Assembly: GCA_947380285.1 (NCBI GenBank)
Contig: CANCQD010000054.1
Span: 1-15,028, forward strand
Length of the DNA: 15,028 nt
Direction: 5' to 3'
Source of the DNA: Burkholderiaceae bacterium
Lineage (GTDB): Bacteria > Pseudomonadota > Gammaproteobacteria > Burkholderiales > Burkholderiaceae
Every line of letters starts with the position of its first letter. Positions within the stretch are counted from its first letter, which is position 1. Under the pieces are notes generated by a model, which was given only the letters and a program-made list of their open reading frames with translations, did not search any database and had not been told where the DNA came from. Shown in pieces: positions 1-9,380 of the stretch. The translations under genes and the position numbers were made by a program.

Positions 1-232
1 CTCTGCCAAAAGCGGAGGACTTAGGTGCGTAATACAGCCCTTGCGCCAGCTTTTCTAAATCACCCGCATCAACCAATTGTTTTAAATGACGGTCAACTGC
101 ATTGGAGTCACCTAAAAGATCCTCTCTTCTATAGACATGACCCCCCTTAAGGTGCGAGCGAAGTCTCCCCAATGCGCTATTGCGCACTTTAGGCGAAGTA
201 CTTAAGGAGGCTTTTACTGGCTCTTTTTGCAT
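1..232 (-). CDS. AbiEi/DUF6088-like winged-helix protein (partial, 5' end only)
   Basis: The visible 77 codons begin MQKEPVKASLSTSPK and contain a short winged-helix-like segment: a helix with RLRSHLKGGHVY, then DLLGDSNAVDRHLKQLVDAG, then a wing ending QGLYYAPKSSAFG. The alternation 'single rule for each site, then G-LYY-P' resembles DUF6088/AbiEi-type N-terminal domains, which in type IV toxin-antitoxin systems bind DNA and neutralise an AbiEii nucleotidyltransferase toxin. The gene runs off the left edge, so any partner toxin (expected downstream, to the left) is not visible. The ATG at 232 is chosen because upstream in-frame starts are absent and a good promoter lies just behind it. No clear Shine-Dalgarno is present, and the predicted leader is under 20 nt. 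It lies outside the tRNA-bounded block. A solitary regulator of the same fold is an alternative. Confidence 0.6.
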   Translation of the reverse strand, partial: MQKEPVKASLSTSPKVRNSALGRLRSHLKGGHVYRREDLLGDSNAVDRHLKQLVDAGDLEKLAQGLYYAPKSSAFGR

Positions 233-311: not shown

Positions 312-347
312 CAAACCCCCACCATTTCTGATGAGGGTTTGCTTTTC
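312..347 (-). terminator. Rho-independent terminator beyond the displaced tRNA half
   Basis: CAAACCC (312-318) and GGGTTTG (335-341) form a stem around a 16-nt loop. Read on the minus strand it is followed by TCTTTT, a short U tract. It starts 7 nt after the CCA end of the tRNA fragment at 348-392, which is where a tRNA terminator would sit. It is therefore probably the original terminator of the rpoD-tRNA transcript, displaced by the insertion. It is also the first hairpin downstream of the acyl-CoA ligase gene, so it may now end that operon. A CTTTTC run on the plus side means it could act in both directions. Confidence 0.55.
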
Positions 348-392
348 TGGTGGGCCCACCAGGACTTGAACCTGGGACCAAAGGATTATGAG
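348..392 (-). repeat. Displaced 3' half of the tRNA(CAU) gene; putative attachment site (distal)
   Basis: These 45 bases are identical to 9304-9348, the 3' part of the intact tRNA gene, from the anticodon loop through the T arm and acceptor strand to CCA, in the same orientation. Identity stops abruptly at both edges (347 versus 9303, 393 versus 9349). No D arm or 5' acceptor strand follows, so this is not a functional tRNA. Exact repeats of a tRNA 3' half starting at the anticodon loop are the classic att core of tyrosine integrases. Confidence 0.85.
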
Positions 393-520
393 AGCAGATA
401 TCCAAAGAAAACCACTAGCATTTCAAGAGGTTACGCCTCCTGTTTATCGGTGTGTGACTATTTGTGTGACTAGATTAACAAGATCACAACAAACACAATC
501 TCACTCTTTGGTTTTCAAAA
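393..520. other. Island left end with phased direct repeat, candidate integrase arm sites
   Basis: No gene is visible in this stretch. TGTGTGACTA occurs twice, at 451-460 and 463-472, start to start 12 bp apart, close to one helical turn. Such repeats next to an att core are typical of arm-type binding sites of tyrosine integrases. A short dyad GAGG-TTACG-CCTC lies at 426-438. I find no terminator hairpin between the end of the ligase gene and 393. Confidence 0.4.
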
Positions 521-2029
521 TTAATTCTGTGTAGAAAGGGCTAGAGATTTTGCCTCTTCCAATAATCGTGCTTTGTCAATCTTATTGGTTGAAGCCAGAG
601 GTAACTCGTTGAGAAACCATATCCAACGTGGATGCTGATATGCAGGCGCATGTTTTAAACAATACTGCTTGAGTGAGTCTGAAGACAATAGATTGCCAGG
701 TTTAATTACAACAAAGGCGGCAGGCTTATATCCTTTAATCTCATCCTCCACTGGAACGACTGCAGCCTGCTGAACTAATGGATGGGACTCAAGTAATCTT
801 TCGACCTCACTGGGATAGATATTCTCACCACCCGATACAAACATATCGTCGCTGCGTCCTATGAATGAATAGAATCCATTTTCATCCACTCGAAACATAT
901 CGCCAGTAACGTAAAAGCCATCTTCCGTAAAGGGAGACTTTAATGCTGGAACTCTAGTTAATGCTTTATGGTAACCAAGCATTAACCCAGGCGATTTTAA
1001 TTCTAAGACCCCATTTACGAGCCTCAATTGAACATTGGAGTGAGGATAACCAACAGATAAAGGCGGCTGCTCCAAACCTTTGGGATGTGGTCCAAAAACT
1101 ACTGGACCTCCCTCAGTAGTCCCATATGCATTAGTTACAAGTACTTGAGGCAATACCTCTTTAATTGACTTAAGTAGACTACTTGAAACGGGCGCAGATC
1201 CCATACGCAAATACTGAACCGAAGAAAAATCTGTCTTTTGAATCAACTCTTTTTCTTGAAGCATCATTGCAATCATTGGAGGAACTGCTGTTAACCAAGT
1301 ACATTGATATTGTTGAATCGCCTCTAAATAGGACTTGGCTGTAAATTGGGGCAAAAGCACAATACTGGCATGTGCCATCAAAGATAATTTAATTAAAGCC
1401 AGTGCGTTCATGTGATACAAGGGGGCAGCTACTAAAAATCGATGATGAGACCAATCGTTTTTTCCAATCCTAGTTTTTGCAACCCAAAGATGGCTCTGGT
1501 GCGATAACTGAACTCCTTTCGGTTTTCCAGTAGATCCAGACGTATACAACAACATGGCCACCTGATCTGACTCAGGCTTAACTGCAACAAACTCCCCAAA
1601 CTCAAGAAAAGAATTGAACCCCTTCGGACCAGGATCGTCAAAATTCACTTTAGTTAAGCCATCGGGCACATCTTCACTGCGCTTAGCATCGCAAAATACC
1701 AATTGAGCATCAGCATCTCGTAGAACAAACTCGATCAATGCAGGTGGAAACTTAAAGTTCACTGGAACTGCAACTAGTCCAGCTCTCATTATTCCAAGAT
1801 AAGTAAATATAAATTCAGCTCGATTAGCTGAAAGAATAGCAACCCGCTCGCCGCTCTTAAAACCAAGCCCTGATAATCGTCGAGCTACAGCATTGCAATG
1901 TTGCTCAATCTGAGCATAAGTGTATTCACGAGGACCGCTCTCGCCTCCTAAATCAATTAAGCCGATCTTTGTCTGATCGAGATCTTGGCGAATAATTTCG
2001 CCAAGATTACTGAAATTGGGCAGCCCCAT
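521..2029 (-). CDS. AMP-dependent acyl-CoA synthetase/ligase (ANL family)
   Basis: A 502-residue adenylate-forming enzyme that should activate a carboxylic acid with ATP to an acyl-AMP and then to an acyl-CoA in the cytoplasm. The family motifs are all visible in order: phosphate-binding loop YTSGSTGKPKG (162-172), YGTTE (302-306), YVTGD (373-377), the hinge block starting GRSDDMFVSGGENIYP (391-406), and a C-terminal STNKIDK with the catalytic lysine at 483. The length is usual for class I CoA ligases. The residue before that lysine is Asn where Gly is commonest, a mild deviation. The substrate cannot be told; medium-chain or aromatic acids are possible. It is the last gene of the minus-strand cluster, starting 14 nt after the thioesterase stop, with only a weak AAGAA ribosome site, so translational coupling is likely. 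Confidence 0.9.
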   Translation of the reverse strand: MGLPNFSNLGEIIRQDLDQTKIGLIDLGGESGPREYTYAQIEQHCNAVARRLSGLGFKSGERVAILSANRAEFIFTYLGIMRAGLVAVPVNFKFPPALIEFVLRDADAQLVFCDAKRSEDVPDGLTKVNFDDPGPKGFNSFLEFGEFVAVKPESDQVAMLLYTSGSTGKPKGVQLSHQSHLWVAKTRIGKNDWSHHRFLVAAPLYHMNALALIKLSLMAHASIVLLPQFTAKSYLEAIQQYQCTWLTAVPPMIAMMLQEKELIQKTDFSSVQYLRMGSAPVSSSLLKSIKEVLPQVLVTNAYGTTEGGPVVFGPHPKGLEQPPLSVGYPHSNVQLRLVNGVLELKSPGLMLGYHKALTRVPALKSPFTEDGFYVTGDMFRVDENGFYSFIGRSDDMFVSGGENIYPSEVERLLESHPLVQQAAVVPVEDEIKGYKPAAFVVIKPGNLLSSDSLKQYCLKHAPAYQHPRWIWFLNELPLASTNKIDKARLLEEAKSLALSTQN

Positions 2030-2043
2030 GAATTAATTCTTGA

Positions 2044-2475
2044 CTAGACTTTTGGAGGTGGAGGAGGAGCGGTGGAATATACACCTCTTCCGCTAGCGCA
2101 TAAGGCGCCGTCTTTGTCAAAAACCTGAGCCTCAGAAACGCTAAATTGATTGCCAAATTTAATTACCTTACCTTTGGCGATTAAATTTCCAGGCATCGCT
2201 GCTCTATGGTAATCGACCCTTAAATCGATCGTCGGAACTCCTCGCCCAGTCTTGGAGACCAATGCCCAGTCAGCAACTAAATCAACTAAAGCAGCCAAGA
2301 TACCGCCATGGGTATATTTTCGATCTGGGTTTACGACCCACTCTTCTCGCCAAGTTGCCTCAATTTCAATACAACCATCTCCAACTGATAGTACTTTTAA
2401 TCCGAGCCACTCATGAAAAGGACCGCGTCTCAGTTTTTCTTCTACCTCTAGGGCCGTTAATTGCACATCTGACAT
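2044..2475 (-). CDS. PaaI-type hotdog-fold acyl-CoA thioesterase
   Basis: A 143-residue hotdog protein expected to hydrolyse an acyl-CoA thioester. The signature is THGGILAALVDLVADWA at about 55-71, with HGG (56-58) and the likely catalytic Asp65 on the long helix. The start at 2475 (ATG, MSDVQLTALE) is preferred over an in-frame TTG at 2493, because AAAGGTGA sits 5-6 nt before this ATG. The TTG would begin at the very end of the upstream gene without a ribosome site. The protein ends in five prolines (137-141) followed by KV, an odd tail outside the fold. It lies between the MDR oxidoreductase (19-nt gap) and the CoA ligase (14-nt gap). The ligase-thioesterase pair may balance CoA pools, or the thioesterase may release the end product. 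Confidence 0.85.
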   Translation of the reverse strand: MSDVQLTALEVEEKLRRGPFHEWLGLKVLSVGDGCIEIEATWREEWVVNPDRKYTHGGILAALVDLVADWALVSKTGRGVPTIDLRVDYHRAAMPGNLIAKGKVIKFGNQFSVSEAQVFDKDGALCASGRGVYSTAPPPPPKV

Positions 2476-2494
2476 ATCGTCACCTTTATTCAAA

Positions 2495-3499
2495 TTATGG
2501 AGTAATTACTACTTTACCGATCACTTCTCGATCTTGAATTAAACGCAAACCCTCTCGCGCCTCTTCAAGCGATAGGACCTTATCAATGACTGGAGTAATT
2601 TCACCTTTTGATATCATCTCCATCAAGGCAGTGAGGTCCTCAATATAAAAACTGTTCGATCCAATCACCTGCAACTCAAAACTCCAAATGTAGCGTAAGT
2701 CTTCTTTAGGATCATGTCCCGCAGTTGCTCCACACACGAGTAATTTCCCACCACGCTTGATACATCTTAACGAGGGAACCCATGTCTCTCCACCAGTAAA
2801 ATTGATGACAACATCTACCCCACCCTCATGATTTCTTCGCTGTGGTTTGCCATATTTTTCGACGGTCCATTTTGAAAAATCGACCTCTTTATAGTTGATT
2901 ACCTCATCAGCGCCGACTTCTTTTAATCTTGCCAATTTATCATCACTACTTGCACAGGCAATCACTTCAGCGCCTAACTGTTTCGCTAAAATGACGCAAC
3001 CTGTACCGACGCCTCCTGAGGCTCCGAGAATTAAAACACGATCTCCTTTTTTAACTGTATTGTGAGTCACCAACATGCGATGGGCAGTTCCATAGGCTAC
3101 TGGCAAGGAGGCTGCCTGAACAAAACTCACTGCATCCGGAATTTTGATCAGTTGCTCTGCTGAAACTAAACAATACTCAGCCATACCCCCATCCAGCATT
3201 TCCCCCATCAAGCCATGCGTTTTATTTAAAGGATTAACTAATACGCGATCTCCGAGCGTCCACCCTTTCACATTGGCGCCAATTTCTACAATCTCACCGG
3301 CCATATCTAGGCCAATAATTACTGGAAGCGGTACTTTAATGCCAGGCATTCCCTTCACAGTAAAAACATCGTGGTAATTGAAAGATGAAGCACCCACCTT
3401 AATGATGACATGATCATCTTTGATAGTGGGTTTTGGGTAGTCCCCGACAAACTCTAATTTATCTAAATTACCATGCTCGCGCAGTACTAATGCCCTCAT
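2495..3499 (-). CDS. Zinc-independent MDR-family NAD(P)H oxidoreductase (quinone/enoyl reductase type)
   Basis: A 334-residue medium-chain dehydrogenase/reductase. The GroES-like N-terminal domain is followed by a Rossmann domain whose dinucleotide loop is GASGGVG (159-165). Classical zinc alcohol dehydrogenases carry a catalytic Cys near residue 40, a GHE motif and four structural cysteines near 95-115. Here these are Asn41 (SFNYHDV), GLD (63-65) and none. It therefore belongs with the zinc-less quinone oxidoreductase/enoyl reductase branch, which reduces C=C bonds or quinones with NADPH, although automatic annotation often says zinc-binding alcohol dehydrogenase. The ATG at 3499 is preceded by AAGGAG, the strongest ribosome site in the window. 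It is followed closely by the thioesterase and ligase; 148 nt separate it from the Bug gene upstream. Confidence 0.85.
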   Translation of the reverse strand: MRALVLREHGNLDKLEFVGDYPKPTIKDDHVIIKVGASSFNYHDVFTVKGMPGIKVPLPVIIGLDMAGEIVEIGANVKGWTLGDRVLVNPLNKTHGLMGEMLDGGMAEYCLVSAEQLIKIPDAVSFVQAASLPVAYGTAHRMLVTHNTVKKGDRVLILGASGGVGTGCVILAKQLGAEVIACASSDDKLARLKEVGADEVINYKEVDFSKWTVEKYGKPQRRNHEGGVDVVINFTGGETWVPSLRCIKRGGKLLVCGATAGHDPKEDLRYIWSFELQVIGSNSFYIEDLTALMEMISKGEITPVIDKVLSLEEAREGLRLIQDREVIGKVVITP

Positions 3500-3647
3500 A
3501 CTCTTCTCCTTAAAATAATTTAAATATCCATTAATTTTGTAAACATAAATTTATCCATAGATCTCTCTATAGAACGCCCTGTTCAAATGAGTTGGCATTC
3601 AGGAGATAGGAAACGGCTTAATCTCCTTGCTCGATCATTTGCAAGGC

Positions 3648-4628
3648 TCAATCTAACTGCTGTAATTTTCCCTCTTTAACCATTCTTGCCCATAGCGCCA
3701 CATCTGCTTCATACCACTTTGCAAATTCCAAGCCAGGACCTGGCAATGGAGTTGCGCCAATGGTTTGTAACCTTTCCTGAACACTACTGGTTTTAATGGC
3801 TTCTAATATTGCCACTTCTAATTTCTTCTGAATATCTGGTGGGGTTTTAGAGGGAACAAAAAAACCGAACCAAGTACCAAATTCGAAACCAGGATATCCT
3901 GACTCCGCGATGGTTGGGACATCTGGTAACAATTTAGAGCGAGACTTTGAGGTAATTGCCAACGCCCTCACTTGCCCCCCTTTAACTTGCGGGTAGGAAG
4001 ATCCCATGACATCGAACAGAACAGTAATTCTTCCGGCAATCAGATCTGGGTATACCGCCCCGCTACCTTTATATGGGACGTGAACCATATCAATACCTGC
4101 CGCTGACTTAAATAATTCACCGACTAAGTGGCTACCAGTATTGTTACCAGAAGAGCCAAAACTCGCTTGCTCTTTATTTGCCTTAATGGCTAGCACTAAA
4201 TCTTTGAGGGTTTTATAAGGGGAGTTATTGGATACTAACAATAGACTGGGGACTGAAGCAACTCCCGCCACCGCAGCGAGGTCGGTCTGAGGATTAAAAT
4301 TAATTTTTGAAAGGCTAGGACTAGTTGCCAAGCTAACTGACGCAAAAAGAAAAGTATATCCATCGGGCTTTGCAGATTTGGCAACATATTCAGCGCCAAT
4401 ATTGCCGCCAGCACCCGGCTTAAGCTCTACGACAACACTTTGCTTCATAATCCTGGATAACTCAACTGAAATGGCTCTACCGATAACGTCCGCTGAACCA
4501 CCTGCAGCATAAGGTACCACCATTACCAGCGGTTCAGAAGGATAAGTATTGGCATGGCACAAGAATCCTGTTAGCAAAAAAGTTATGCCAACCAAAAAAT
4601 GTCGAGTAATACAATAAATATTTTTCAT
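3648..4628 (-). CDS. Bug/TctC-family periplasmic solute-binding receptor
   Basis: A 326-residue tripartite tricarboxylate transporter-type binding protein. With the ATG at 4628 the product starts MKNIYCITRHFLVGITFLL, a clear signal peptide, with likely cleavage after CHA (residue 26). An upstream in-frame ATG at 4679 would put 17 residues before the signal and has no ribosome site, whereas AAGGG stands 7 nt before 4628. Family marks are VPYAAGGSAD (38-47), PGAGGNIGA (71-79) and PDGYT (88-92). These proteins bind carboxylates or amides in the periplasm. No TctA or TctB membrane subunit is encoded here, so it must borrow a membrane pair from elsewhere or act as a sensor. A Cys occurs at residue 24, but FLC is a poor lipobox. 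Confidence 0.92.
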   Translation of the reverse strand: MKNIYCITRHFLVGITFLLTGFLCHANTYPSEPLVMVVPYAAGGSADVIGRAISVELSRIMKQSVVVELKPGAGGNIGAEYVAKSAKPDGYTFLFASVSLATSPSLSKINFNPQTDLAAVAGVASVPSLLLVSNNSPYKTLKDLVLAIKANKEQASFGSSGNNTGSHLVGELFKSAAGIDMVHVPYKGSGAVYPDLIAGRITVLFDVMGSSYPQVKGGQVRALAITSKSRSKLLPDVPTIAESGYPGFEFGTWFGFFVPSKTPPDIQKKLEVAILEAIKTSSVQERLQTIGATPLPGPGLEFAKWYEADVALWARMVKEGKLQQLD

Positions 4629-4756
4629 GGATAAGCCCTTCAGGTCATCAGGAGAATTTTTAAGGTATGTCAAATACATTTTTTAATCATCATTCAGGCG
4701 CTCTTTAAAATAATTTGACTCATGCTGAAGAATTAAATTAAAAAAATAAATTTGGA

Positions 4757-5491
4757 CTACCACTTAAAATCCTCCTGGCTAAGCGTGTATATTTTGCTTC
4801 CGTCACTATTTTCTATCTGACATTGGGTAATCAAATTAGGGGACTCTAACGCCTCTCCATGAATTCTGAGCAGGCAATTACCTAGATCAATAGTGTAATC
4901 ATTCATCCAACTGTGAGAGCTATCTGTAAGGGAGCCCTGTAGTTTTAGTAATTTAGCAAATACTTGATAAGTTTGGGCAGGATTCGATGATCCGACTCTA
5001 ATCTCTTTCAAATGGATTAGCCCATTTGAATGCTCCATATCCCCTGCTATCCAGACATACTCGGGCGTCAGATGCTGGCAAAAATAGATCCGCAGCCCCG
5101 GAATAGGTTGAGCTGTAAAACGAACAGCTTTAAATAAGGCTTGCTTTATTTCTCCATCAATCTGCACTGGCCGAGATAAATCTTGCACTGGATTGGGGGC
5201 AAAACCTGATTCCATTAAATCCTGATAGCAAGCACCTGCATCTGATGTTCTAAAAACCAAGGCATCAAGTCCACAAGGTCGGTCGGCTATTTCCTGTCTA
5301 ATTGACTGAGCTTGTGACTCCCAACCTAAAATTTCTAAATAGGCACTATCAAGCATAATTAGTCGATTGAGTGATCCTAAGTTATGTCTTGCTAGGTCGG
5401 TTAAATGAAACCCCTTCGCCTCAAGAGTTTGGGCAGCCACCTCCATTTTGTCTCGTCCAGTAATAACGAGATGATCGAATTTATATACCAT
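4757..5491 (-). CDS. VOC-superfamily (glyoxalase-like domain) protein
   Basis: A 244-residue protein beginning MVYKFDHLVITGRD, the usual first strand of a vicinal-oxygen-chelate fold, followed by YLEILGWES (51-59) and, in the second half, YFCQHLTPEYVW (136-147) and HSNGLIHLKEI (154-164). Possible metal or substrate ligands are His7, Glu53, His140 and His160/Glu163. It resembles the glyoxalase-like (Glyoxalase_3) group, whose reactions are mostly unknown; isomerase, lyase or dioxygenase chemistry are all found in the superfamily. The start lies 10 nt after the lyase stop codon with GAGG unusually far upstream, so translation is probably coupled to the preceding gene. The pairing with a PLP lyase is the best clue to function, and I cannot name a substrate. 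Confidence 0.75.
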   Translation of the reverse strand: MVYKFDHLVITGRDKMEVAAQTLEAKGFHLTDLARHNLGSLNRLIMLDSAYLEILGWESQAQSIRQEIADRPCGLDALVFRTSDAGACYQDLMESGFAPNPVQDLSRPVQIDGEIKQALFKAVRFTAQPIPGLRIYFCQHLTPEYVWIAGDMEHSNGLIHLKEIRVGSSNPAQTYQVFAKLLKLQGSLTDSSHSWMNDYTIDLGNCLLRIHGEALESPNLITQCQIENSDGSKIYTLSQEDFKW

Positions 5492-5501
5492 CTGGTAAAG
5501 G

Positions 5502-6719
5502 TTACCTCACTGCCAATGCTGCATCAAGTGCTTGCGAAAAATCCCCAATCAAATCTTCAGCGCCTTCGAGTCCAGCATGCAATCTAATGAGATGACCTAA
5601 TTTAAGGTCATTTGAATCATCAAGTCTATGAAGGGGGTCAGCTAAGAGCGCTAAACTTTCAAATCCGCCCCAGGACAAACCAATCCCGAAAATTTTAAAT
5701 TCTTTAAATAGTATCGAGAGCTGATTTTTAGACATGGGGTGAAGGATGATGCCAAATAATCCGCTAGCCCCTAAGAAGTCACGCTGCCATAATTCAAACC
5801 CAGGATTACCAGGCAGAGCGGGATGGAGTACTTGTGCAACTGCTTTGTGATTCTGAAGCCAATGAGCCAGTTGTAAACCATTTTTCCAGTGTCTTTCCAT
5901 GCGAACGGACAGTGTTCTTAATCCCCTCATCGCTAGAAAAATATCATCTGGCCCCGCTGTTTCACCAAAAATATGTGCGCTGGCTTGCAAACTAGGCCAC
6001 GCCCTTTCATTAGCCGTAGCCACACCGAGCAAACCATCTGAATGTCCAATTAGATATTTCGTTGCCGCATGAATAGAGATATCAACACCATGCTCAAATG
6101 GCCGAAAGTACAAGGGCGTTGCCCAGGTGTTATCCATTACTACATAGGCATTAATGGAGTGAGCGATCTCTGCAATCGCTGGAATATCTTGCATCTCAAA
6201 TGTCATTGATCCCGGGGATTCGACATAGATCACCCGCGTTTTGTCTTTCAATTTAAGGGATAAGTCACTTAAGTTTGTGGGGCTGAAAAACTCCACCTCA
6301 ATATTCATACGCCTAAGGACCTGCTCAGCAAAATTTCGAGTAGGTCCGTAAACACTATCGCTGATCAATAAATGGTCACCGGCCTTTAGGAGACCAATGA
6401 GGGCGTGAGTACATGCCGATAGTCCAGAGGGAAATACCAGAGACTGATAACCACCTTCCAACTCAGCAATTGCAGATTCAAATGCTTTGGTCAAAGGCGA
6501 CCCAAAGCGACCATAGCTAGCCATCGGATTACTTTCGCTCCTACGTAAATCCCACTCCTCTAAGGATTGAGCCAAGATGGTTGAACCTCTAAATACCGGC
6601 ATATTTACAAACCCAGCATATTCAGAGGAATTCCTACCAATATGGGAAAGTAAGGTGTCTTGCCCACCCGTCACATTCCTAGAGTGAGGGCTATCTATTG
6701 CTTTTATCGATTCTTTCAT
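5502..6719 (-). CDS. metC: Cystathionine beta-lyase-type PLP enzyme (Cys/Met metabolism family)
   Basis: A 405-residue gamma-family PLP enzyme. The PLP lysine is Lys221 in ATKYLIGHSDG, the ring-binding Asp196 is in VMDNTWATPL, the phosphate and neighbouring-subunit residues are in YGRFGSPL (69-76), and the carboxylate Arg379 is in RLHAGLE. SWGGFES (349-355), with the tryptophan after Ser, is characteristic of cystathionine beta-lyase rather than gamma-synthase. Such enzymes cleave C-S bonds of cystathionine, cysteine or cysteine conjugates to pyruvate, ammonia and a thiol. The ATG at 6719 is chosen; a TTG at 6740 would add seven residues, and neither has a clear ribosome site. It heads the minus-strand operon, is divergent from an Lrp regulator and is followed at 10 nt by the VOC gene. 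On an island, a role in catabolism rather than methionine synthesis is plausible, so the symbol describes family only. Confidence 0.88.
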   Translation of the reverse strand: MKESIKAIDSPHSRNVTGGQDTLLSHIGRNSSEYAGFVNMPVFRGSTILAQSLEEWDLRRSESNPMASYGRFGSPLTKAFESAIAELEGGYQSLVFPSGLSACTHALIGLLKAGDHLLISDSVYGPTRNFAEQVLRRMNIEVEFFSPTNLSDLSLKLKDKTRVIYVESPGSMTFEMQDIPAIAEIAHSINAYVVMDNTWATPLYFRPFEHGVDISIHAATKYLIGHSDGLLGVATANERAWPSLQASAHIFGETAGPDDIFLAMRGLRTLSVRMERHWKNGLQLAHWLQNHKAVAQVLHPALPGNPGFELWQRDFLGASGLFGIILHPMSKNQLSILFKEFKIFGIGLSWGGFESLALLADPLHRLDDSNDLKLGHLIRLHAGLEGAEDLIGDFSQALDAALAVR

Positions 6720-6750
6720 AATAGCAATGTTATGCTTCAAAAATCGAAAT

Positions 6751-6805
6751 TAAATACCAATTAATATCTAAAAATTGAATATTAATAGAAAATTATACTT
6801 AATAT
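6751..6805. promoter_or_regulatory. Divergent control region with three TTAATAT boxes (candidate Lrp operator)
   Basis: The very AT-rich gap between the lyase and the regulator carries TTAATAT at 6761-6767, its reverse complement ATATTAA at 6779-6785 and a third direct copy at 6799-6805. The first two form a 25-bp dyad. A weak minus-strand promoter, TTCAAT (6774-6779) with TATTTA (6751-6756) at 17 nt, overlaps the dyad. For the regulator, TATACT (6794-6799) is a good plus-strand -10 without a convincing -35. Lrp-family proteins bind AT-rich dyads and often regulate themselves and a divergent neighbour. Confidence 0.4.
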
Positions 6806-6825
6806 TTATTTAAGTAGAGAAAATT

Positions 6826-7308
6826 ATGCTAGATAATAAGTTAGATAGGCTGGATTGCAAAATCCTCGCCCTACTGCAAGAAGATGCATCCCTTTCTATT
6901 GGGGATATTGCAGAAAGCGTAGGCCTCACTACAACTCCTTGTTGGAAAAGAATTCAGAGATTAGAAAAGCAAGGAGTCATTAGAAAAAGAGTGGCTCTTC
7001 TTAATCCACCGCAACTCAATCTTGGTTTAATCGCCTTTATCTCAATAAAAACCAATCAACATAAGATTGAGTGGTTTGAATCCTTTCATCGCATTGTTAG
7101 TGCAATCCCAGAAGTAGTCGAGTTCTACCGTGTCACTGGCAATACAGACTATCTTTTAAAAGTAGTTCTATCCAGCATAGAGGACTACGACAGAGTCTAT
7201 AAAATCTTAATTAAGGGTGTTGACTTGGTAGATGTCAGCTCTATGTTTGCGATGGAACAAATTAAATACACTACCGCACTACCCTTGAATCAAGTCAACT
7301 TAAGTTAA
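6826..7308 (+). CDS. Lrp/AsnC-family transcriptional regulator
   Basis: A 160-residue regulator. The N-terminal helix-turn-helix spans about residues 22-53 (LSIGDIAESVGLTTTPCWKR then IQRLEKQGVI), the classic Lrp signature including T-PCW-R. The C-terminal part is the RAM effector-binding domain, with GNTDYLLKVV at about 105-114. Length is normal. It should bind DNA as dimers or octamers and respond to an amino acid. It is transcribed away from the cystathionine beta-lyase-like gene. The same pairing, an Lrp-type regulator divergent from a sulfur amino acid lyase, is known for mdeR-mdeA in Pseudomonas putida, so a sulfur amino acid is the natural effector guess. Its stop lies 5 nt from the convergent gamma-glutamyltransferase stop. 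The ribosome site (AGAGA) is weak. Confidence 0.92.
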   Translation: MLDNKLDRLDCKILALLQEDASLSIGDIAESVGLTTTPCWKRIQRLEKQGVIRKRVALLNPPQLNLGLIAFISIKTNQHKIEWFESFHRIVSAIPEVVEFYRVTGNTDYLLKVVLSSIEDYDRVYKILIKGVDLVDVSSMFAMEQIKYTTALPLNQVNLS

Positions 7309-7313
7309 AAAGA

Positions 7314-8963
7314 CTAGTAGACCGCTGCCTGACCATCTCGACGTGGGTCGCTAGCGGCAATATAACCATCCTCAAGATCATCAGATAAGCGCCAAATAAA
7401 TTGACCGGCTCCAAAATCCATATAAGGATCATCTACTTTTTTCAATGTGTGACCCATTTCAGTTAATCCTTTAACGGTCGCGGGGTTCATATTGGACTCA
7501 ACATCTAAAGTAAAGTCTCGATTGACCTTCCAACGAGGCGCATCACAAGCTGCCTGAGGCTGCTGTCGATAAGTCAACATTCTGAGAACAGTTTGCAAGT
7601 GGCCTTGTGGCTGCATATCTCCGCCCATCACACCAAAACTCATTTGCGGAATGGTGACTCCTCCTTCTTTGCGAGTTAAGAAAGCCGGAATAATGGTGTG
7701 AAATGGTCGCTTCCCTCCAGCTACTACATTGGTAGAACGAGGATCCATCGAGAAACCAAACCCCCTGTTTTGCATGCTCACTCCCCAGTCAGGAACCACA
7801 ATACCCGAGCCAAAGCCCATGTAGTTACTCTGAATAAAGGATATCATGCGGCCATTTTCATCAGTAGCGGATAGGTAAACAGTGCCCCCTGAACTGGGGA
7901 GCCCAAACTGAAAGTTCGTTGCCTTGTGGGGGTCAATTAATTTTGCACGATCTGCTAAATAGGCTGGATCAAGCATTTGCTCAGGCGTTACATCCATGGA
8001 CCTAGGATCTGCTACATACTTATAAACATCCGAAAAAGCCAACTTCATTGCCTCAATTTGCAGATGCTGACTGAGTGCTCCATCCAGCGGTAAATTTTGC
8101 AGATCAAAATTTTGCAAGATCCCCAAAGCCATTAATGCCCCTATACCCTGTCCATTAGGAGGTATCTCATGCATTGAATAGGTCTTACCATCCGCACCTT
8201 TTACATCCTGCTCTATTGTGCCAACCCATTCTGGGCGATATGAAGCAAGGTCCTGCAGTGAAAGAGCTCCACCATTGCTTTTAGAGAAACCAGCAATGGC
8301 ATGCGCAACTTCACCTTCATAAAATTCTCGAATTCCACTCTTGGCAATCTTTTTCAATGTACGAGCAGCCGCTTGAAAACGAAATATTTCACCGATTTCA
8401 GGGGCACGTCCATGGGGCATAAAGGCTTGAGCAAATCCAGGCTGATTCTGCATCTCTGGAATAGCGGCCGCCCACTTATGGGCTACCACAGGAGCCAATG
8501 CATAACCCCGCTCAGCAATCTCAATAGCTGGTTGCAATAAATCACTTAAGGGCAGGGAACCAAAACGCGTATGTAAGGCTTCCCAGCCTGCAAGCGCGCC
8601 TGGAACGGTGACCGAATCCCAGCCACGCATAGGCCTCTCAGCCAAACCATTACCATCACGACCATATTTACTCGCAAAGTATTCTGGACTCCAAGCGCTA
8701 GGGGCTACCCCAGATGAATTTAAACCATGCAATTCTTTACCATCCCAAACAATAGCAAAGCAATCACTACCCAAGCCATTGGATACTGGCTCCACAATCA
8801 TTAATGCTGCTGCTGCTGCAATAGCCGCATCAATAGCATTGCCGCCTTGTTGAATGATTTTCAATCCCGCCTGCGCAGCATAAGGATGAGAAGTTGACAC
8901 AACATTACGCCCCATCACAGGGACCCTAATGGTTGGGTATGGGTTATTCCAATTAAATTTCAT
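7314..8963 (-). CDS. Gamma-glutamyltransferase family protein (Ntn hydrolase)
   Basis: With the ATG at 8963 the product has 549 residues and begins MKFNWNNPYPTIRVPVMGRN, typical of the cytoplasmic-looking GGT branch. The family makes a proenzyme that cleaves itself before a threonine, which becomes the nucleophile; here that is Thr361 in SSGGTVYLSATD. Other GGT marks are GGNAIDAAIAAAAAL (about 40-54), PPNGQGIGAL (268-277) and GGDMQPQGH (447-455). It would hydrolyse or transfer gamma-glutamyl groups, for example from glutathione. No signal peptide is visible, unlike periplasmic GGT. A TTG at 9032 would add 23 residues without a ribosome site or family match, so it is rejected. It is transcribed separately from the lyase operon, convergent with the Lrp gene. 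Acylase activity on other amides is possible. Confidence 0.9.
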   Translation of the reverse strand: MKFNWNNPYPTIRVPVMGRNVVSTSHPYAAQAGLKIIQQGGNAIDAAIAAAAALMIVEPVSNGLGSDCFAIVWDGKELHGLNSSGVAPSAWSPEYFASKYGRDGNGLAERPMRGWDSVTVPGALAGWEALHTRFGSLPLSDLLQPAIEIAERGYALAPVVAHKWAAAIPEMQNQPGFAQAFMPHGRAPEIGEIFRFQAAARTLKKIAKSGIREFYEGEVAHAIAGFSKSNGGALSLQDLASYRPEWVGTIEQDVKGADGKTYSMHEIPPNGQGIGALMALGILQNFDLQNLPLDGALSQHLQIEAMKLAFSDVYKYVADPRSMDVTPEQMLDPAYLADRAKLIDPHKATNFQFGLPSSGGTVYLSATDENGRMISFIQSNYMGFGSGIVVPDWGVSMQNRGFGFSMDPRSTNVVAGGKRPFHTIIPAFLTRKEGGVTIPQMSFGVMGGDMQPQGHLQTVLRMLTYRQQPQAACDAPRWKVNRDFTLDVESNMNPATVKGLTEMGHTLKKVDDPYMDFGAGQFIWRLSDDLEDGYIAASDPRRDGQAAVY

Positions 8964-9258
8964 ATTCACGCTTATTGGGAAGTAATTTGAGTTGAGTTCA
9001 AAACAGTATTCATTGCGCCCTACTTTTTCCAACTATATCAGCAAGCTTTTAAGAAGTACTAAGACTGAATACTTAGGCTACTGATTGCAATTTTTTAATA
9101 TTTCTCACCAGCTAAACTGAACTCTGTTAGTCAAACTAGCCCCGAACAATTGCGCGCATAAATCAATAAGTAGTTCATTGCTCCAATGGCTGACCTATAT
9201 ATTTATTGGGGCTCCCATGGAGGATGTGTAGAGATTGCTTACACACCTTGTGATACAG
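8964..9258. other. Intergenic region upstream of the gamma-glutamyltransferase; island right end
   Basis: I see no gene here. On the minus strand TATAGT (9033-9038) could be a -10 for the transferase, but no good -35 fits. TGTGTA (9225-9230) and TACACA (9240-9245) form a dyad. GGTGTGTAA read on the minus strand (9239-9247) matches GGTGTGTGA at 449-457, at an equal distance (57 bp) from the tRNA repeat at the other end of the island. It is a candidate integrase arm site. Confidence 0.35.
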
Positions 9259-9260
9259 AA

Positions 9261-9296
9261 AGAAAAACGACTTAGGAATTTCTCCCTAAGTCGTTG
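9261..9296 (-). terminator. Rho-independent terminator of the rpoD-tRNA transcript
   Basis: A perfect 11-bp stem, AACGACTTAGG (9266-9276) with CCTAAGTCGTT (9285-9295) and an 8-nt loop, is followed on the minus strand by a T-rich run. It begins 8 nt after the tRNA CCA end. If the island model is right, this terminator came with the island. Confidence 0.85.
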
Positions 9297-9303
9297 ATTT
9301 CAT

Positions 9304-9348
9304 TGGTGGGCCCACCAGGACTTGAACCTGGGACCAAAGGATTATGAG
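9304..9348 (-). repeat. Putative attachment site (proximal), inside the intact tRNA gene
   Basis: This is the 45-bp partner of 348-392. It covers the anticodon loop to the CCA end, so insertion rebuilds a functional tRNA. Under the island model this 3' half is the incoming copy and the native one is at 348-392. Confidence 0.8.
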
Positions 9349-9380
9349 TCCTCTGCTCTAACCAACTGAGCTATAGGCCC
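9304..9380 (-). tRNA. tRNA with CAU anticodon, probably tRNA-Ile2 (lysidine type)
   Basis: The 77 nt fold into a full cloverleaf: acceptor GGGCCTA with TGGGCCC, D arm GCTC/GAGC, anticodon stem GAGGA/TCCTT with loop CTCATAA (anticodon CAU), T arm CCAGG/CCTGG with TTCAAGT, and an encoded CCA. CAU could mean elongator Met, initiator Met or Ile2. The initiator is excluded by the paired first base (G1-C72). C4-G69 and C5-G68 are the pairs used by TilS to recognise tRNA-Ile2 in E. coli, whereas elongator tRNA-Met has others, so I favour Ile2. Many annotations would call it tRNA-Met. It begins 13 bp after the rpoD stop, leaving no room for a separate promoter except inside rpoD. Its 3' half is duplicated at 348-392. 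Confidence 0.9.

Follow-up and report, generated by a model that had tools for sequence, protein, structure and literature searches.

A metabolic island at a Polynucleobacter tRNA-Ile2 gene is probably one cassette of a recurrent, mostly recombinase-less element system

Among the described systems with which the present locus was compared, the closest case is that of the ssrA islands of Dehalococcoides, 31 of which lie in tandem and 15 of which have no integration module and were proposed to be cis-mobilizable (PMC3146451). Here we describe a 15,028-nt stretch of DNA, hereafter the window (contig CANCQD010000054.1 of assembly GCA_947380285.1, from a Burkholderiaceae bacterium), in which a metabolic island lies between an intact tRNA gene downstream of rpoD and a copy of the 3' half of that tRNA. 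We consider it probable that positions 393-9303 are one cassette of an element system that inserts at tRNA-Ile2 downstream of rpoD, with the recombinase supplied in trans. What comparison between genomes establishes, at the level of sequence, is that the ends of the island recur, that half-tRNAs form the borders, that genome G173 has a copy of the same cassette, that other genomes have an empty site or another cassette at this place, and that the cassettes are mostly without a recombinase (G and L numbers denote the genomes and loci compared).

Like the Dehalococcoides islands, the cassettes stand in tandem downstream of one RNA gene, have direct repeats of the 3' end of this gene as borders and carry niche metabolic cargo. 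The Dehalococcoides islands, however, have tmRNA as the target, a 20-bp repeat and serine recombinases, whereas the target here is tRNA-Ile2, with a putative crossover in the anticodon loop and tyrosine-type candidate recombinases; unlike what was compared of that report, the cassettes here have replacement terminators at their ends and share their place with mini-elements and an intron. A tRNA landing site, repeated tRNA ends and cargo that differs between strains of aquatic bacteria are also features of the additive tRNA islands of Alteromonas (PMC4119200) and of Ca. Methylopumilus with its tRNA-Lys repeats (PMC10872708), but the conserved cassette ends and crossover found here did not appear in the compared parts of these two reports. 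Tycheposons are likewise tRNA-bordered cargo elements of aquatic bacteria; they carry a xerD-type tyrosine recombinase within the element (PMC10872708, PMC11389934), whereas the window island has the tRNA border and no recombinase. Polynucleobacter can reach very high abundance in fresh water (PMC7522526), and its flexible genome was described as driven in large part by the exchange of genomic islands (PMC5644125). As far as titles and the beginnings of abstracts tell, none of the Polynucleobacter papers listed on genomic islands, tRNA and microdiversification describes this site; work on P. asymbioticus islands may touch on it. No publication on Polynucleobacter together with a group I intron was found.

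The island is bordered by an exact 45-bp direct repeat (348-392 and 9304-9348, same orientation, spacing 8956) that extends from the anticodon loop, with CTCATAA at 386-392 and 9342-9348, through CCA; such a duplicated tRNA 3' half had been claimed in an earlier note on this DNA, and the exact repeat was confirmed. By reasoning, a random exact match of 45 bp in 15 kb (approximately 10^8 pairs x 4^-45) is negligible. One copy belongs to an intact tRNA gene (9304-9380, minus strand; ARAGORN, Rfam tRNA and E. coli matches), which would be the insertion target and the proximal border, and the other copy (348-392, minus strand) would be the distal border. At an RNA gene, the island thus lies between attL/attR-like repeats, as an integrase-less mobilizable island should. 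The anticodon of the tRNA is CAT. Since its top E. coli matches are annotated as tRNA-Ile (84.4% over 77 nt in six listed records) and genome G001 has a separate CAT tRNA with a different sequence, the window tRNA is probably tRNA-Ile2(CAU); the tRNA-Met label given by ARAGORN was rejected as reflecting only the anticodon. The neighbouring genes are presumably rpoD, dnaG, a yqeY-like gene and rpsU; this setting and the top named matches of RpoD indicate Polynucleobacter.

Both ends of the island recur round other cargo, over approximately 143 bp beyond the tRNA and over 128 bp ahead of the distal repeat. The conserved proximal end (9158-9303, minus strand), which comprises a replacement terminator and arm-like repeats, was found again after a tRNA or half-tRNA in L116 (88%), L229 (86%), L164 (85%) and L140 (85%). 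Its terminator hairpin with a T-rich tail (9266-9295, minus strand, 13 pairs) follows the tRNA directly. The pattern scan that detected this hairpin gave no overall excess over shuffled sequence; a terminator-like structure was observed after 152 of 158 CCA ends, compared with 80 of 400 places taken at random. An inverted motif, GGTGTGTA..CTACACAT (9224-9247, minus strand), was read from the sequence of the proximal end and has similar counterparts in related proximal ends, and a direct repeat, TAGTCACACAAATAGTCACACACC (449-472, minus strand), was read in the same way from the conserved distal end (393-520, minus strand) and recurs in other distal ends; both are arm-like, and their function is putative. 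The ACACACC-type repeats at both ends look like integrase arm sites and may serve as such.

A profile of the distal end was built from 26 ends selected as preceding a 3' half, one of which (L172) was falsely included. It gave 42 matches in 35 loci at E <= 1e-4, all on the tRNA strand. The training set accounts for 25 of the 28 matches that precede a 3' half, which leaves 17 independent matches: nine before CCAGAGAACC, four before a mini-element of approximately 0.2 kb, three before a 3' half and one (L120) before a possible diverged half-tRNA. In the window, TCTGCT stands just before CTCATAA, and an exact CTCATAA followed 38 of the 42 matches, with differing sequence beyond it; in 13 of the 42 (L120 left out) the next sequence was not tRNA. 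The right borders of L122, L183 and L201 were exact to the base, with TCTGCT-CTCATAA followed by a mini-element. Because CTCATAA stays exact while the sequence beyond it differs, the 7-bp anticodon loop CTCATAA (9342-9348, minus strand, at the proximal border) is probably where the crossover takes place, and the 45-bp identity would be a by-product. A crossover within the 7-bp loop of a tRNA, as in an anticodon-loop attB, is what the right borders point to when their sequences are compared. A 45-bp att core was considered and rejected because the same 13 distal borders have little beyond CTCATAA in common with the tRNA. The weakest distal match, L137, delimits a "cassette" of 152 bp and may be false.

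The same borders bear on RecA-dependent homologous recombination, for example by natural transformation, which might have acted between the 45-bp halves and the shared ends with no site-specific recombinase. We regard this as a rather unlikely explanation: the 45-bp repeats and the 130-bp ends supply homology, and such recombination was reported to be high in P. asymbioticus (PMC5644125), but those 13 borders share little over 7 bp with the tRNA, and L122, L183 and L201 have base-exact borders. The unusual left border in G173, described below, would fit homologous recombination, which may also swap whole cassettes once borders exist.

The sequence TCTGCTCTCATAA was present in 87 of 186 genus genomes, while a reversed-pattern control was found in 8. 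Among the matches listed whose place relative to rpoD is known (n=85), 73 were no more than 100 kb from rpoD, downstream of it in the direction of the tRNA; the match in G110 falls outside this zone. Of 398 family genomes, 18 had the exact 21-bp junction with the tRNA half; every one of these belonged to the genus set, and none of the 337 family genomes beyond that set had it. As for carriers, phage carriage was rejected on zero matches of three exact patterns in viral contigs, a search that diverged copies may escape, and plasmid carriage was rejected because the plasmid matches span the tRNA and at most 17 further bases. A second type of proximal end, CATAACCAGAGAACCTAA, was also observed, most copies of which have GTGTGTAGGCAAT-type repeats farther along; it follows distal ends in L131, L147, L155, L168, L172, L180, L184 and L192, and other sequence in L186, L194 and L200.

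RpoD was found in 170 of the 186 genus genomes, and the stretch downstream of rpoD was compared for 100 of them, some of these stretches stopping early at a contig end. The tRNA was recognised in 97 of the 100 loci, uninterrupted in 57 and with an insert of 150-350 bp in the anticodon loop in 40. Further 3'-half copies numbered 52 in 39 of the 100 loci, or 56 when the window and L229 are counted, and none of those 56 was on the opposite strand. The gene set of the window was found in 0 of the 100 stretches, in which there were scattered weaker matches of single genes, mainly TctC. In 44 of the 97 loci (e.g. L193) the first tRNA is followed by a terminator of the type found at 312-347 (minus strand) of the window, which is the empty-type arrangement. 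The earlier note had predicted a site in which the tRNA is followed by this terminator and an AbiEi-like gene; it was encountered in L190 (387 bp at 91.5% to the window), where the tRNA is interrupted and the terminator is a variant.

That AbiEi-like gene (DUF6088; N-terminal part at 2-232, minus strand, running off the window) has a weak Pfam match below the cut-off and a full-length homologue in L190. There it is accompanied by an AbiEii partner (Pfam), and a distal end lies at 1.9 kb from the tRNA. In L211 an AbiEi/AbiEii pair is likewise present by similarity, with a distal end at 2.0 kb. Because the pair is followed by a distal end in both loci, positions 1-347 of the window appear to open a second cassette, one of defence type, and the window itself seems to be a section of an array; the AbiEi gene therefore looks like the start of the next cassette rather than native flank, as the prediction of the earlier note implies. 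Among the smallest cassettes at the site is one of 0.77 kb (L176, relative positions 93-860) that holds a single gene for a BLUF blue-light sensor (PF04940).

A close relative of the lyase gene of the island (E <= 1e-90) was found in 1 of 186 genomes, G173 (92% aa). Its contig contains the whole window cassette (89.5% over 9040 bp) within a tandem array, in which it is preceded by a half-tRNA, a cassette of 3.6 kb and a second half-tRNA, and followed by a third half-tRNA and then by other genes, presumably for tricarballylate use. The cassette genes of the window and G173 are 87-95% identical. As G173 gave no rpoD or dnaG match, G091, the closest relative of the window among those compared (dnaG 92.8% nt), was used as its stand-in, and eight regions round EF-Tu-family genes were 77-86% identical between G173 and G091. 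The higher identity of the cassette points to its transfer between species, insofar as G091 represents the window. At its own tRNA G091 carries a different cassette of 4.5 kb.

These data also bear on whether the tRNA half was merely duplicated locally within a vertically inherited metabolic block. This is very improbable: the composition of the island is near that of the flank and some genomes have related gene sets at other places, but the lyase has its one close relative in G173, the gene set is absent from the examined stretch of G091, and empty and alternative sites exist. The earlier note had named as contrary evidence a set without the repeat in all relatives, or the lack of an empty site with vertical phylogenies; what was found is a set with half-tRNA borders in G173, sites of the empty type and a distribution that is not vertical. 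Its claim that 393-9303 was inserted as a unit at the tRNA is supported by the recurrent ends, the empty-type sites and the G173 cassette with a half-tRNA at both borders, with the correction that the unit also includes one of the two half-tRNA copies.

No integrase gene of the kind expected inside an autonomous tRNA-integrating element was found in the window. Recombinase queries of the IntA/RecB type (tblastn) gave no credible match there (best E 0.47), and the eight island genes, all of which match metabolic, transporter or Lrp families (Pfam/NCBIfam), include no recombination or transfer gene of their own, so that the claimed absence of a recombinase between the repeats is borne out. Integrases of cassettes were sought by tblastn with the same type of queries, as Pfam alone misses the IntA of L179; for other recombinase families, PF00589 only was searched in 38 genomes, with places compared by eye among the matches listed, and serine recombinases were not sought. 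A recombinase of the IntA/RecB type was found in 4 of 41 cassettes (L147, L179, L184 and L192), and 37 of the 41 were without known types. The cassettes of L147, L184 and L192 have lengths of 10-16 kb, and a separate element may be nested in them. In L179, a 429-aa IntA adjoins the tRNA and the distal end of the element matches the profile (E 4.8e-30). This IntA has the R, R-H and Y positions of the motif in common with its family. The L179 element, which has its own integrase, is a candidate helper. G004 has a cassette and two PF00589 proteins only, probably XerC and XerD as we assume, with no candidate for the IntA query.

The island could alternatively be a decayed autonomous one that entered with its own integrase gene, since deleted, and is now fixed. 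Although the window has no integrase and the L179 element, whose distal end is related, does carry one beside the tRNA, we judge this unlikely: the cassettes without known types keep conserved ends, G173 has the same cassette without an integrase, which was hence moved or inherited in that state, and the island is 92% coding in eight genes with no relic found. The earlier note had left a choice between a decayed and a trans-mobilised island. Because 37 of 41 cassettes are without a recombinase of known type while their ends stay conserved, mobilisation in trans (or in cis) is favoured over simple decay.

If the island is such a trans-mobilised cassette, a tyrosine recombinase from an L179-like relative or another mobile element in the cell would bind the arm-like repeats at both cassette ends, and the circular cassette would recombine with the anticodon loop CTCATAA. 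An intact tRNA would be rebuilt next to rpoD with the 3' half and terminator of the cassette, and the displaced 3' half would come to lie at the far end. Later insertions at the tRNA, or at the CTCATAA next to the distal end of a resident cassette, would give rise to arrays.

Several observations weigh against this explanation. The evidence is wholly comparative, and excision or integration was not observed. The proximal end of L179 is only weakly like that of the window (79% over 49 nt, E 9.5e-5), and its IntA has no Pfam match; of eight relatives of this IntA (57-64% identity), six adjoin tRNA-Phe, one of these being stop-broken, and two have no tRNA in the stretch examined. CTCATAA is altered in about 4 of the 42 distal matches (L120, L137, L149 and one of L176), and in G173 the left half-tRNA of the cassette follows a short intron remnant and not CTCATAA. 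The three exact junction patterns that were absent from viral contigs count here as well. Finally, composition gives the island no foreign mark: the tetranucleotide distance was 0.280 between the island and the rpoD side and 0.272 between the halves of the rpoD side, and GC was 42.8% vs 45.4% (island vs rpoD side), so that the comparison of k-mer composition proposed in the earlier note does not discriminate.

The insert in the anticodon loop of the interrupted loci is read as a group I intron, as RF00028 was above the cut-off in 4 of 6 loci tested (L119, L123, L144 and L145; not L117 and L122). It splits tRNA-Ile2 in most cases between CTCAT and AATCC, the place of the putative cassette crossover, and its ends differ in about 4 of the 40 interrupted loci. 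Of the 57 intron-less loci, 14 had a window-type terminator after their first tRNA, compared with 2 of the 40 interrupted ones (Fisher p 0.012), but distal ends were present in 23 of the former and 10 of the latter (p 0.13). With kinship not corrected, this gives a hint that the intron may shield the tRNA from cassettes. In L136, L146, L149, L183, L229 and others, the intron 3' end precedes some of the 3'-half copies; several of these follow a reading frame with a shared ending, and an intron-borne gene is possible.

We tentatively propose, with less confidence than the insertion itself, that the whole is a capture system resembling integrons, with a tRNA as its base. The anticodon loop of tRNA-Ile2 would land cassettes, the 128-bp distal end with CTCATAA would be the recombination site, and the cassettes would bring replacement terminators by which the tRNA gene stays correctly terminated. 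One or a few recombinases acting in trans would serve a genus-wide pool without integrases. The intron would destroy CTCATAA and may shield the gene, and cassettes landing at an upstream half-tRNA would restore an intron-less tRNA. Such arrays would resemble CALIN, in which cassettes with a conserved end and no integrase are moved in trans (PMC11389934). Here, unlike in CALIN, the anchor is a tRNA gene. The junction is read as CTCATAA and not as the attC core of integrons, no attC search having been run. If cassettes have one landing site in common and defined ends, this would account for the passage of metabolic sets like that of the window between species, provide a sequence signature for cassette mining and yield a testable helper-and-satellite system with a tRNA gene as the target.

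The cargo consists of eight genes. Seven of them are on the minus strand: an AMP-forming acyl-CoA ligase family gene (521-2029; PF00501), a hotdog thioesterase (2044-2493; PF03061, TIGR00369), a member of the zinc-type alcohol dehydrogenase/quinone oxidoreductase family (2495-3499; PF00107, PF08240), a TctC-type solute receptor (3648-4679; PF03401), a glyoxalase-like protein (4757-5491; PF13468), a cystathionine beta-lyase-like PLP enzyme (5502-6740; TIGR01324, 437 bits with a cut-off of 365.9) and a gamma-glutamyltranspeptidase (GGT) family gene (7314-9032; PF01019, 2.7e-146, under the TIGR00066 cut-off with 322.9 vs 357.85). An Lrp/AsnC-type regulator (6826-7308; PF01037, PF13412) is on the plus strand. 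The cargo probably amounts to a small set for catabolism or scavenging, and we would guess from the GGT and the C-S lyase that its substrates are gamma-glutamyl or sulfur amino-acid conjugates. Diverged sets of ligase, thioesterase, dehydrogenase, Lrp and TctC genes were also observed in G157, G145, G146, G147, G134, G144 and G181 (L230-L236); GGT was present in 4 of these 7 stretches, and there was no lyase match in the stretches compared.

Other elements were observed at the tRNA. Mini-elements of about 200-250 bp lie between two tRNA 5' halves in 43 of 100 loci (e.g. L119, relative positions 15-247; L188, two in tandem), most of them hold ACACACC-type repeats resembling cassette ends, and an interrupted tRNA is also present in 38 of these 43 loci. 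Furthermore, L144, L146, L160 and L193 have elements of 5.3-6.2 kb between rpoD and the tRNA, with other ends and a 5' half-tRNA beside rpoD. These encode an IntA (about 404 aa), a short second tyrosine recombinase (about 220 aa) and a conserved 146-aa protein, which in L193 is DUF6641.

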